Below, piece after piece: positions 33,988-53,747 of a stretch of DNA of 64,000 nucleotides. Origin of the DNA: Shewanella sp. UCD-KL21 (GTDB lineage: Bacteria; Pseudomonadota; Gammaproteobacteria; Enterobacterales; Shewanellaceae); assembly GCF_001957135.1 (NCBI RefSeq), contig NZ_MPHK01000016.1:1-64000 (forward strand). Reading direction: 5' to 3'. The translations under genes and the position numbers were made by a program. Within the stretch, counting starts at the first letter, position 1. Every line of letters starts with the position of its first letter. The notes below the pieces were generated by a model that was not told the DNA's origin, made no database searches, and was given only the letters and a program-made list of their open reading frames with translations.

Positions 33988-35091
33988 TTAGAAACAGATC
34001 AACTTTTGATGAATAACCTCAAACTCAGATTGATTAAGCCCCACTTGCTGCAATAGCTGCTGCAAATCATCTTGTTTAAGTTTATCTTTTTGCCGCAACA
34101 TAGAACACTCACTAATGATATTAGCCCGCCATACAGCCAATGCCATCGCGTCTGTTGGACGATAATCAGAATTAGTTAATTGTGCTAGCTGAAACTCAAA
34201 CTGCGCTGGCAGCTGCCAATGCTTAGCCAGTAACGCACTTAGCCCTAACGACTTAGTGGTCATCACTTGCTTAAACAATGCCGAACTTGGTTGCTCACCC
34301 GGCTCGGCTTTTTCAAAGGCATCCAGCAGCATTTTGAAAATGGCGATTTTGCCCACATCATGAAGTAATCCCAGCAAAAATACTGTATCAGCATCTTCTT
34401 CAGCTAAGTCACTGGCAATAAAAGCCACTTGCATTGAATGACGCCAAATTTCAGCGCCAAAACGCCTAAAGTAAATCGGCTTAATATCAATCATTTCTTT
34501 CACCAAACAACTGCGAACAAACTGACGTAATTGCGCTCGCCCTAGCTGCACAATGGCTTGCTGTAGATTAGTAATATCTTTGTCTGAACGCTTAAAAGCA
34601 CTTGAGTTGCATAACTTTAACACTTCGACGCTCAGTACCGGATCTTGCTCAATTAACCGCAGTACTTGTTTGGTTTCAATCCCATCTTGGGATAGTTGAT
34701 GGTCAAGCTCGGTTATGCGCCTTGGCAGTTTTAATACTTTGGCAGCAATGTCTTGAGGTGCACTAAAAGCAATATTGATTTCGGCTAATATGCTACGTTC
34801 AAGATTATTCGCCATGCCACCATTTTTGTGGCTACTCATAGGAAAAAGCAGGCTATAAAACAGCGCGGATAAATCTATTTGTTGCGCCTCTTCCGCTGTT
34901 TCATTTGAGTTGCTTAAGTGTGATTTGGCCTGCCTTACATATGAGTCGCTTGAGCGCAGTTTCGACTCTGTAGCGCTTGGCTCTTGGATGTTAGCCGATA
35001 GCAATGAGTGCTGCTCATTTAATGCTTTGGCTTGTTTGACCTCAACGGCCGGTCTTAAATTAAAAATCTTATTGAATAGCTTTTTAAACAC
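33988..35091 (-). CDS. HDOD domain protein
   Basis: A 367-aa protein with an N-terminal low-complexity region (about residues 15-75) and a central HDOD domain (about residues 115-310), recognised by LPRRITELDHQLSQD, VLKLCNSSAF, AIVQLGRAQLRQ and the FLLGLLHDVGKIAIF helix with the HD pair. HDOD proteins are linked to signalling, motility and stress control and generally lack the full metal site of HD phosphohydrolases. Translation seems to start at GTG. Genomic position next to gyrB and glyS gives no clear functional hint. Confidence 0.9.
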   Translation of the reverse strand: MFKKLFNKIFNLRPAVEVKQAKALNEQHSLLSANIQEPSATESKLRSSDSYVRQAKSHLSNSNETAEEAQQIDLSALFYSLLFPMSSHKNGGMANNLERSILAEINIAFSAPQDIAAKVLKLPRRITELDHQLSQDGIETKQVLRLIEQDPVLSVEVLKLCNSSAFKRSDKDITNLQQAIVQLGRAQLRQFVRSCLVKEMIDIKPIYFRRFGAEIWRHSMQVAFIASDLAEEDADTVFLLGLLHDVGKIAIFKMLLDAFEKAEPGEQPSSALFKQVMTTKSLGLSALLAKHWQLPAQFEFQLAQLTNSDYRPTDAMALAVWRANIISECSMLRQKDKLKQDDLQQLLQQVGLNQSEFEVIHQKLICF

Positions 35092-41352: not shown

Positions 41353-41388
41353 TAAAAATCCTTAAATACCGTTTGTTGAAGGAGGGGT

Positions 41389-41660
41389 ATTCTATCGTTA
41401 GATCTCAATGATCGCTATCGATAAAAAAAATTTTATCCCCAAGCTGATCATTGTATGTGGATATCTGTGATCTTTGAAGATCAAAATCGATCTATTTATT
41501 ATGAATTGTTCATAGATCCTGCTTTATTAACCGATCAACATTGATCTATAATAACGCGGCTTTGATCTAGTAAAACTATCTTAGATCCACTACATATTGT
41601 GTTGGTACACAGAGTTATCCACATCCTGTGGTAGATTTTTAGGGTACTGATCAAAGTTAA
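41389..41660. promoter_or_regulatory. dnaA-rpmH origin-like region: GATC cluster, DnaA boxes and AT-rich 13-mer
   Basis: This intergenic stretch (41353-41800) holds 12 GATC sites between 41401 and 41652, about ten times more than chance. A perfect DnaA box TTATCCACA is at 41615-41623; near-matches are TTATCCCCA (41433-41441) and the minus-strand ATATCCACA (41456-41464). GATCTATTTATTA at 41489-41501 differs in one base from an E. coli oriC 13-mer. In Pseudomonas the origin lies at this dnaA-rpmH position; here a second candidate lies between mioC and mnmG. At minimum it is likely the Dam/SeqA- and DnaA-regulated promoter region of dnaA. Confidence 0.7.
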
Positions 41661-41695
41661 ATTGGTAAAAATTGTTCATATAGTCATTTTCCTAG

Positions 41696-41724
41696 TTGAC
41701 GGTAGTGATTAAAGTGATTACAAT
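41696..41724 (+). promoter_or_regulatory. rpmH promoter
   Basis: -35 TTGACG (41696-41701), 17-bp spacer, -10 TACAAT (41719-41724), giving a leader of about 70 nt before rpmH. A near-consensus sigma-70 promoter, as expected for ribosomal protein L34. Confidence 0.8.
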
Positions 41725-41800
41725 TCGGCCTCTTTTTTGTCCTTGCGTCTTATTTCAAGAATGTAAGGTTTATTAACTACTAAATATACGGATTGCCAAA

Positions 41801-41938
41801 ATGAGTAAACGTACTTTTCAACCAAGCAACCTGAAGCGTAAGCGTTCTCACGGCTTCCGCGCACGTATGGCCACTGTAGGCGGCCGTAAAGTGATTGCAC
41901 GTCGTCGTGCAAAAGGTCGCGCTCGTTTATCTGCTTAA
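41801..41938 (+). CDS. rpmH: 50S ribosomal protein L34
   Basis: A 45-aa, very basic protein: [31 protein letters not shown] and [13 protein letters not shown] segments are those of L34. It begins the rpmH-rnpA-yidD-yidC cluster, which points away from dnaA, the order conserved near most bacterial origins. A strong promoter lies upstream. Confidence 0.98.
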
Positions 41939-51367: not shown

Positions 51368-51857
51368 ATCCCTAAAAAACCAGATAACTTGGTTAACATC
51401 TTTATTTATACCCACAATAACAACCTATCTTATCCACAAAAAGCAAAATACGATCATAACTTTGTGGATAAGCTATTATTTTTACCGATCATAACGCTGT
51501 ACAGATCTTAAGGTGATCTGCTCGAAGATCACCCCTGTGGATAACTAGTCGATCTATCCCCAAGTTATATTGAGTTTGATCCTTCATTGATCACAGGATC
51601 GTTTTGTCGTTAACCCATGAAAATAAACAGATAAATGAGTTACCCACAGAAAAGTGCGATCCTAATAGTAATAGTAATAAAAAGATCTATTTAAAGATCT
51701 TAAGATCTATTAAGCCAAGCCCGTTAGATCGAAACTAGAAAATTGATCATTCCCGAAAAGCAAACCAAGTGCTAAAATACTCGGCTCAAGCAAGCCCTAG
51801 ATTTGAAATCTAGTTAAAAATTGCAATATCAAATTTACTTTTATCCAAGGTCACAAA
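51368..51857. other. oriC: chromosomal replication origin oriC (mioC-mnmG)
   Basis: The 490-bp gap between mioC and mnmG has 15 GATC sites (51452-51748). DnaA boxes: TTATCCACA at 51430-51438 (plus), minus-strand copies at 51463-51471 and 51536-51544, and TTACCCACA at 51640-51648 (one mismatch). Three AT-rich 13-mer-like repeats that start with GATC, at 51684, 51696 and 51704, form the probable unwinding element on the mnmG side, the layout of E. coli oriC. Duplex melting, Dam/SeqA control and DnaA binding are inferred from this. IHF and Fis sites were not identified. Confidence 0.9.
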
Positions 51858-53747
51858 ATGCATTTTCATGAACGGTTTGATGTAATTGTTGTTGGTGGTG
51901 GTCATGCCGGAACTGAAGCTGCCCTAGCAGCGGCAAGAATGGGATCAAAAACATTATTGTTAACACATAACATTGATACTTTAGGTCAAATGTCGTGTAA
52001 CCCTGCCATCGGTGGTATTGGAAAAGGTCATTTAGTTAAAGAAATTGATGCTCTTGGTGGTGCAATGGCCACTGCAACCGATTTTGCAGGTATCCAATTT
52101 CGAACATTAAATTCCAGTAAGGGCCCTGCAGTCAGAGCCACTCGTGCTCAAGCTGACCGAGCGCTTTACCGTCAAAAAATCCAACAGATTTTACAACACC
52201 AGCCTAATTTACGTATTTTCCAACAAGCGGTAGACGACTTAGTTGTTGAAAATAATACTGTAATTGGCGTAGTCACTCAGATGGGTCTCGCTTTTGAAGC
52301 GCCAAGCGTAGTGTTAACTACAGGCACTTTCCTCAGTGGTAAAATCCATATTGGTTTAGAAAATTACAGTGGTGGCCGAGCAGGTGATCCGCCAGCGATT
52401 GCCTTAGCAAATCGATTAAAAGAATTGCCTATTCGTGTGGGACGTTTAAAAACCGGTACTCCACCACGAATTGACGCCAATAGCATTGATTTTTCCAAGA
52501 TGGCTGAGCAAAAAGGTGATTCACCTTTACCAGTTATGTCGTTTATTGGTGATGTCAGTCAACACCCTGAACAAGTCTCTTGTTATATCACTCATACCAA
52601 TGAAAAAACTCACGATATTATTCGTGGAGGTATGGATCGTAGCCCAATGTATTCAGGGGTGATCGAAGGCATTGGACCACGTTATTGTCCATCGATCGAA
52701 GATAAAATTAATCGCTTTGCAGATAAGTCATCACATCAGATCTTTATCGAACCTGAAGGCTTAACCACCAATGAGATCTATCCCAATGGGATCTCAACCA
52801 GTTTGCCATTTGATGTGCAATTGAATTTGGTGCGATCAATTCAAGGTATGGAGAATGCAGAAATCATTCGTCCTGGTTACGCTATTGAATATGATTATTT
52901 TGATCCAAGAGATTTAAAAAACTCACTTGAGACTAAAAATATCAATGGTTTGTTCTTTGCTGGACAAATTAACGGTACAACCGGTTATGAAGAAGCCGGT
53001 GCTCAAGGATTACTCGCCGGTATGAACGCGTCATTGCAAGTTCAAGGCAAAGAGACTTGGTGCCCACGCCGCGACCAAGCTTACCTTGGGGTGTTAGTTG
53101 ATGACTTATCAACCTTAGGTACCAAAGAACCTTACCGTATGTTCACCAGTCGTGCTGAATATCGTTTGCTACTGCGTGAAGACAATGCTGATTTACGTTT
53201 GACTGAAAAAGGCCGTGAATTAGGTTTAGTTGATGATCATCGCTGGGCATTATTCAGTGAAAAGATGGAGTCCATTGAAACTGAGCTGCAACGCTTACGT
53301 GGTCAGTGGGTTCATAATAATTCACCTTTGCTTGATGTATTAAACCCTGAGCTTAATACCCCTATTTCTCGTGAAGCATCATTTGAAGATCTACTTCGTC
53401 GTCCTGAAATGGATTATAAAAAATTAATGAGTTTGGAAGGTTTTGGACCGGGGATTGAAGATCCACGTGCTGCAGAGCAAGTTCAAATTCAAGTGAAGTA
53501 CTCTGGTTACATTCAAAGACAGCAAGGTGAAATTGATAAAGCGATTCGTCATGAAACCACCATGTTGCCGCTTGATCTTGATTATCAAGAAGTACCAGGC
53601 CTTTCAAATGAAGTGATCGCCAAGATGAATGAGCATAAACCTGAAACCATTGGTCAAGCATCAAGAATTTCAGGAATGACCCCAGCTGCGATCTCAATCT
53701 TGCTGGTTCATCTTAAAAAGCGTGGTTTATTGCGTAAAAGCGCATAA
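51858..53747 (+). CDS. mnmG: tRNA uridine 5-carboxymethylaminomethyl modification enzyme MnmG
   Basis: A 629-aa FAD enzyme (GidA) that with MnmE modifies wobble U34. The dinucleotide fold is [23 protein letters not shown] at the N-terminus (GGGHAG core); other family marks are [28 protein letters not shown], and [17 protein letters not shown]. Same length as E. coli MnmG (629 aa). First gene to the right of oriC, transcribed away from it. Confidence 0.99.

Follow-up and report, generated by a model that had tools for sequence, protein, structure and literature searches.

The GATC-rich spacer between dnaA and rpmH of Shewanella: very probably a sequestered, autoregulated dnaA promoter rather than a second origin

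The intergenic DNA between dnaA and rpmH of Shewanella sp. UCD-KL21 combines a dense array of GATC sites with DnaA boxes. We consider it very probable that this stretch is a dnaA promoter of the kind known from Escherichia coli, sequestered by way of Dam and SeqA and autoregulated by DnaA, rather than a second origin of replication. The window, i.e., the whole stretch of 64,000 nucleotides that was analysed, belongs to a 4.6-Mb assembly of 84 contigs. Left of the spacer, gyrB, recF, dnaN and dnaA are encoded on the minus strand; to the right, rpmH, rnpA, yidD, yidC and mnmE follow on the plus strand, gyrB and yidD being named from their position and the usual gene order. mioC, oriC and mnmG are found 10 kb beyond the spacer. 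The features are compiled in Table 1. Between positions 34000 and 60000, no Rfam family for an RNA element was found at its gathering score.

Table 1. Features of the dnaA-rpmH spacer and of oriC in the window
Feature	Position	Strand	Remarks
dnaA	39964..41352	-	TIGR00362, 621 bits
dnaA-rpmH intergenic control region, 448 bp	41353..41800		439-448 bp in 76/85 Shewanella/Parashewanella spacers; the remaining 9 measure 460-590 bp
Candidate -10 TAGAAT, dnaA-proximal promoter	41389..41394	-	in 83/85 aligned spacers
GATC array, 12 sites in 252 bp	41401..41652		includes 10-bp-phased 41469/41479/41489 and 41533/41543
One-mismatch DnaA box TTATCCCCA	41433-41441	+	exact in 83/85 spacers
One-mismatch DnaA box ATATCCACA	41456-41464	-	only 27/85 spacers have a box within one mismatch at this site
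13-mer-like stretch GATCTATTTATTA	41489-41501	+	two mismatches to consensus GATCTNTTNTTTT
Perfect DnaA box TTATCCACA	41615-41623	+	exact in 85/85 spacers
rpmH promoter TTGACG-17-TACAAT	41696..41724	+	-35 TTGACG in 80/85, -10 TACAAT in 85/85
rpmH	41801..41938	+	TIGR01030, 85.5 bits
oriC proper, mioC-mnmG spacer, 15 GATC	51368..51857		three perfect DnaA boxes at 51430, 51463, 51536
Likely unwinding element of oriC	51663..51712		least stable 50 bp of the mioC-mnmG spacer

The spacer would be divergent regulatory DNA of dnaA and rpmH that is specialised for the cell-cycle control of dnaA. Dam would methylate the GATC array; the fork coming from oriC, 10 kb off, would leave it hemimethylated on its passage, and SeqA would then bind. 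SeqA on the array would keep the dnaA promoter silent during part of the cycle and thereafter be released. At other times DnaA, bound to TTATCCACA at 41615 and to TTATCCCCA at 41433, would repress its own promoter. By homology with E. coli we infer methylation, the binding of SeqA and DnaA and the consequence for transcription; directly observed are the sites, their conservation, the Dam and SeqA genes and the array's correlation with SeqA.

The E. coli precedent is well described. As stated in a passage of PMC5835720, the dnaA promoter region of E. coli contains 9 GATC sites in 225 bp; DnaA represses it, and SeqA sequesters it after replication. Its DnaA box sits between two dnaA promoters. 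SeqA control of dnaA also appears in parts of PMC4285127 and PMC5295017; a passage of PMC5295017 that mentions Shewanella concerns the crystal structure of Hda. The effect of such control on dnaA may be modest, because, in work cited in a section of PMC5145175, the synchrony phenotype survived the mutation of GATC sites in the dnaA promoter of E. coli. In E. coli K-12, which has Dam and SeqA, the region likewise lies between divergent dnaA and rpmH. The E. coli spacer of 606 bp contains 9 GATC sites and one perfect box, that of Shewanella 12 and one in 448 bp; the numbers of GATC expected are 2.35 and 1.35, respectively. Both spacers display a GATC triple at 10-11-bp steps. They differ in that 9 of the 12 GATC sites of Shewanella lie between the boxes at 41433 and 41615, and in that we see one candidate dnaA promoter as compared with the two of E. 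coli. The layout of the E. coli dnaA promoter can be extended to Shewanella as a conserved element.

The array consists of GATC sites at 41401, 41410, 41446, 41469, 41479, 41489, 41515, 41533, 41543, 41564, 41584 and 41649, in line with the twelve sites in about 250 bp that had been counted in a first-pass annotation of this DNA. Chance or a general richness in GATC is ruled out as the cause. A first-order Markov model of the spacer yielded a mean of 1.97 sites and a maximum of 9, twelve being reached in none of 5000 simulations, and a 400-kb sample of the same genome (about 9% of it) contained 2.51 GATC per kb, with 7 per 252 bp in the densest cluster. The pattern GATC-N6-GATC-N6-GATC occurs once in the entire 4.6-Mb assembly, at 41469-41492. 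The sole comparable cluster of the 400-kb sample, the one with 7 sites, is located on contig C2 (L267:7283-7340); its 9-bp steps mimic a SeqA array and belong to an apparently coding tandem repeat that would be read as VDP or STG according to the strand.

Conservation was assessed in 85 dnaA-rpmH spacers of Shewanella and Parashewanella, of which 83 are distinct and two pairs are identical. They comprise that of the window, 9 further spacers and 75 from the best 80 of 428 loci that encode a relative of MnmE (77 of Shewanella/Parashewanella, 3 of Aeromonas); the three Aeromonas loci and two without dnaA or rpmH were left aside. The nearest relative among these best 80 is a Shewanella sp. with 99% identity. 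The spacers contain 7-14 GATC sites, with a median of 12. Eight sites (41410, 41446, 41469, 41479, 41489, 41533, 41543, 41564) are kept in place in 79-85 of the 85 spacers and that at 41401 in 67; conservation is lower at 41515, 41584 and 41649. The eight conserved sites, the box at 41615 and TTATCCCCA at 41433 are embedded in sequence of which much varies. A set of 40 stretches yielded 32 dnaA-rpmH spacers and 39 oriC regions; each of the 8 stretches without dnaA ended at a contig end.

The DnaA boxes are likewise as first annotated: one is perfect (41615), two deviate by one mismatch (41433 and 41456). A further TTATCCCCA near the dnaA start (window column 41356) occurs in 69/85 spacers and is absent in the window species. 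With up to one mismatch allowed, the spacers hold a mean of 3.89 boxes each, compared with 0.66 in shuffled sequences. Given these frequent weak boxes, DnaA likely binds to the spacer, which would fit autoregulation and initiation equally well. The minus-strand TAGAAT is the best candidate for the -10 element of dnaA, with GATC 41401 and 41410 a short way upstream. A clear -35 was not found for this candidate promoter, and TAGAAT was also missed by a consensus promoter scan, whose single minus-strand match (41478-41450) falls on a poorly conserved stretch of the alignment. Together with the genes for Dam and SeqA and the link between SeqA and GATC described below, the conserved GATC and DnaA sites beside the candidate -10 lend support to the earlier idea of a dnaA promoter under heavy SeqA and DnaA control.

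The genome encodes both SeqA (135 bits) and Dam (314 bits), each above its curated cut-off. Of 108 genomes of the order Enterobacterales, 77 had SeqA; among 158 drawn from the class there were 2 with SeqA, both belonging to the order. Dam, searched in the order only, was present in 101 of the 108. From 180 rpmH loci 112 dnaA-rpmH spacers were obtained, the remaining 68 having either no dnaA in reach (50) or a contig end (18). Outside the order, an rpmH match was present in 150 class genomes, of which 71 were taken and 53 gave a spacer. In four of the 112 spacers the dnaA match begins at residue 69 or later, and their length is therefore rough.

Over these 112 spacers, the enrichment of GATC beside dnaA largely follows SeqA. 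The median ratio of observed to expected sites was 4.20 in 38 SeqA-positive genomes (E. coli included), 1.50 in 19 genomes of the order with Dam and without SeqA, 1.28 in the 2 of the order lacking both, and 0.47 in 53 SeqA-negative genomes of the class. An at least three-fold enrichment was seen in 33/38, 3/19, 0/2 and 2/53 of them, respectively. The contrast with the class cannot separate SeqA from Dam, because Dam was searched in the order only; the contrast within the order can. There, the median of family means was 4.2 in 11 SeqA-positive and 1.55 in 8 SeqA-negative families (Mann-Whitney p 0.0012, phylogeny ignored). SeqA-negative, Dam-positive genomes of the order are somewhat more enriched than those of the class (p 0.0007); Dam alone, relatedness or undetected SeqA may add to the enrichment.

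Exceptions exist on either side. Five of the 38 SeqA-positive genomes remain below three-fold: all three of family f152, one of f160 and one of f2. In f152 (L170, L190, L191; family mean 0.67), small genomes with SeqA and Dam, the spacer contains 0-1 GATC, and sequestration of dnaA may have been lost in this family. Conversely, three genomes with Dam and without detected SeqA, L194 (G242), L188 (G208) and L197 (G222), are at least three-fold enriched, with 14, 10 and 3 sites; perhaps their SeqA has diverged, or hemimethylation is recognised by another reader.

The spacing of the sites is suggestive only. In one genome from each of 10 SeqA-positive families, 14 of 92 adjacent spacings measure 10-11 bp, as against 5.0 ± 2.1 under uniform placement (0/2000). 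The range had been picked after viewing the data, each family was represented by its genome with the most sites (that of the window by the window itself), those below five sites were omitted, and the families share ancestry. In vitro, SeqA binding prefers two to three helical turns, not one, according to a passage of PMC5145175.

A full enteric-type oriC at mioC-mnmG, 10 kb away, had also been proposed, and it is indeed there. It resembles the dnaA spacer in having a GATC array with DnaA boxes. What sets it apart is the skew minimum, together with three perfect boxes and an unstable element that is conserved. The oriC comparison set comprises 72 mioC-mnmG spacers; Shewanella/Parashewanella oriC was obtained from 44 of the 80 MnmE loci. 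The boxes at 51430, 51463 and 51536 read TTATCCACA in 65, 70 and 72 of the 72 relatives, respectively, and GATCTTAAGATCTATTA at 51696 is found in at least 58 of them (its two commonest variants counted). Perfect boxes average 3.03 per spacer at oriC and 1.02 at dnaA-rpmH; within one mismatch, oriC reaches 4.79 compared with the 3.89 mentioned above.

It is against this standard that a dormant or conditional second origin has to be judged, at which DnaA would assemble on the spacer and open it when oriC is unavailable. We regard it as very unlikely. The ancestral gene order of a dnaA-rpmH origin and the excess of DnaA sites over shuffled sequence speak in its favour, as does the stability minimum of the spacer over 50 bp, which at 54.7 is under the 1st percentile of the window (55.8). 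Yet oriC offers three perfect boxes instead of one and is much less stable: its minimum, 48.3, is below the 0.1 percentile (51.8), which the dnaA spacer does not reach. Over the relatives this minimum averages 48.9 at oriC and 55.0 at dnaA-rpmH, with single dnaA-rpmH spacers as low as 46.7. The dnaA spacer thus holds a fairly weak stretch, unlike that of oriC. An unwinding element with repeated AT-rich 13-mers was not found in it; there is a single 13-mer-like stretch, and this one is not conserved. The first-pass annotation had described GATCTATTTATTA as a 12/13 match to an oriC 13-mer. The match holds for one E. coli 13-mer, and over the 85 spacers only the GATC within the stretch is conserved. 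13-mer-like stretches with up to two mismatches number 0.55 per dnaA-rpmH spacer (0.34 when shuffled) and 1.79 per oriC (0.43 when shuffled).

Strand composition also turns at mioC-mnmG. The cumulative GC skew, calculated for the 64-kb window only, has its minimum of -634 at 51867, as compared with -489 at 41576, and a switch at the dnaA spacer was not seen in the window. At third codon positions, the skew in the window is -0.008 for leading genes on the left, -0.160 for lagging genes on the left and -0.026 for genes right of oriC. Between the dnaA spacer and oriC it is -0.176 for plus-strand genes and +0.170 for minus-strand genes, the latter amounting to 2.2 kb only. Since the plus-strand genes there are skewed like the lagging genes further left, replication of this interval from mioC-mnmG is presumably of long standing. 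In 75 of 76 loci (out of the 80, Aeromonas included), yidC and mnmE together are below the presumed leading genes. This multi-genome test is weak and gene-dependent: the effect comes mainly from mnmE (mean -0.254), whereas yidC alone (-0.020) is not below gyrB (-0.036) or mnmG (-0.085). Because mnmE drives it, we rely on the calibration within the window. The dormant or auxiliary origin considered in the first-pass annotation therefore finds no support and is rejected as the best reading on the number of perfect boxes, the weaker unwinding candidate, the unconserved 13-mer and strand composition.

The strongest point for a second origin comes from E. coli itself. In rnhA and rnhAB mutants, a DnaA-dependent, UV-induced initiation zone called oriK-3850 borders dnaA, as stated in a section of PMC12000880, whose authors take the DnaA boxes in the promoter of dnaA into consideration. 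By analogy, the Shewanella spacer, which lies in the same neighbourhood beside dnaA, might retain a latent capacity for DnaA-dependent initiation. SeqA and the absence of a strong unwinding element would normally mask it, and it would come into play upon impairment of oriC or RNase H. To this we give very little credence. oriK-3850 differs in that it pertains to RNase H mutants, was mapped as a zone and, according to the same section of PMC12000880, depends on oriC for its strong UV induction. The GATC-rich spacer illustrates a trap for sequence-only origin calling in Enterobacterales: GATC sites plus DnaA boxes alone do not mark an origin.

Pseudomonas origins are not known to be rich in GATC. 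The Pseudomonas-type origin shares with the Shewanella spacer the dnaA-rpmH neighbourhood and a DnaA box; in P. aeruginosa it has five boxes, as given in a part of PMC4285127, compared with one perfect and two one-mismatch boxes here. Two autonomously replicating elements were obtained from P. aeruginosa, as cited in a passage of PMC4403523. The first-pass annotation had spoken of autonomous replication from both locations in Pseudomonas.

The spacer may also be a relic of an ancestral dnaA-rpmH origin, retained as the autoregulatory part of the promoter once initiation had moved to mioC-mnmG. This we hold for quite possible, while leaning slightly against it; the estimate concerns history, is compatible with the sequestered dnaA promoter, and the odds are not additive. 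The order rnpA-rpmH-dnaA-dnaN-recF is retained, which passages of PMC4285127 and PMC5295017 give as the usual neighbourhood of oriC, and perfect DnaA boxes are present in the dnaA-rpmH spacer of many SeqA-negative genomes, too. A relic, however, leaves the GATC array unexplained, which is near background in most SeqA-negative genomes; an array that tracks SeqA is more in keeping with a target of SeqA than with the signal of an ancestral origin. It had also been suggested that the dnaA promoter titrates the initiator. Some titration by the two conserved boxes is possible; it is probably minor, since the dnaA promoter region of E. coli accounts for no more than 3-4 DnaA molecules by the estimate in a passage of PMC5835720. 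That titration is the main function of the spacer is extremely unlikely, the GATC array being unnecessary for such a site.

The three Aeromonas species (L357, L358, L359) deviate from the compact layout. Their dnaA-rpmH spacers extend over 2.75-2.83 kb, enclose long open frames and contain no perfect DnaA box. All three have a tight cluster of five GATC sites 59-127 bp from dnaA, and eight or nine more in the 400 bp before rpmH.
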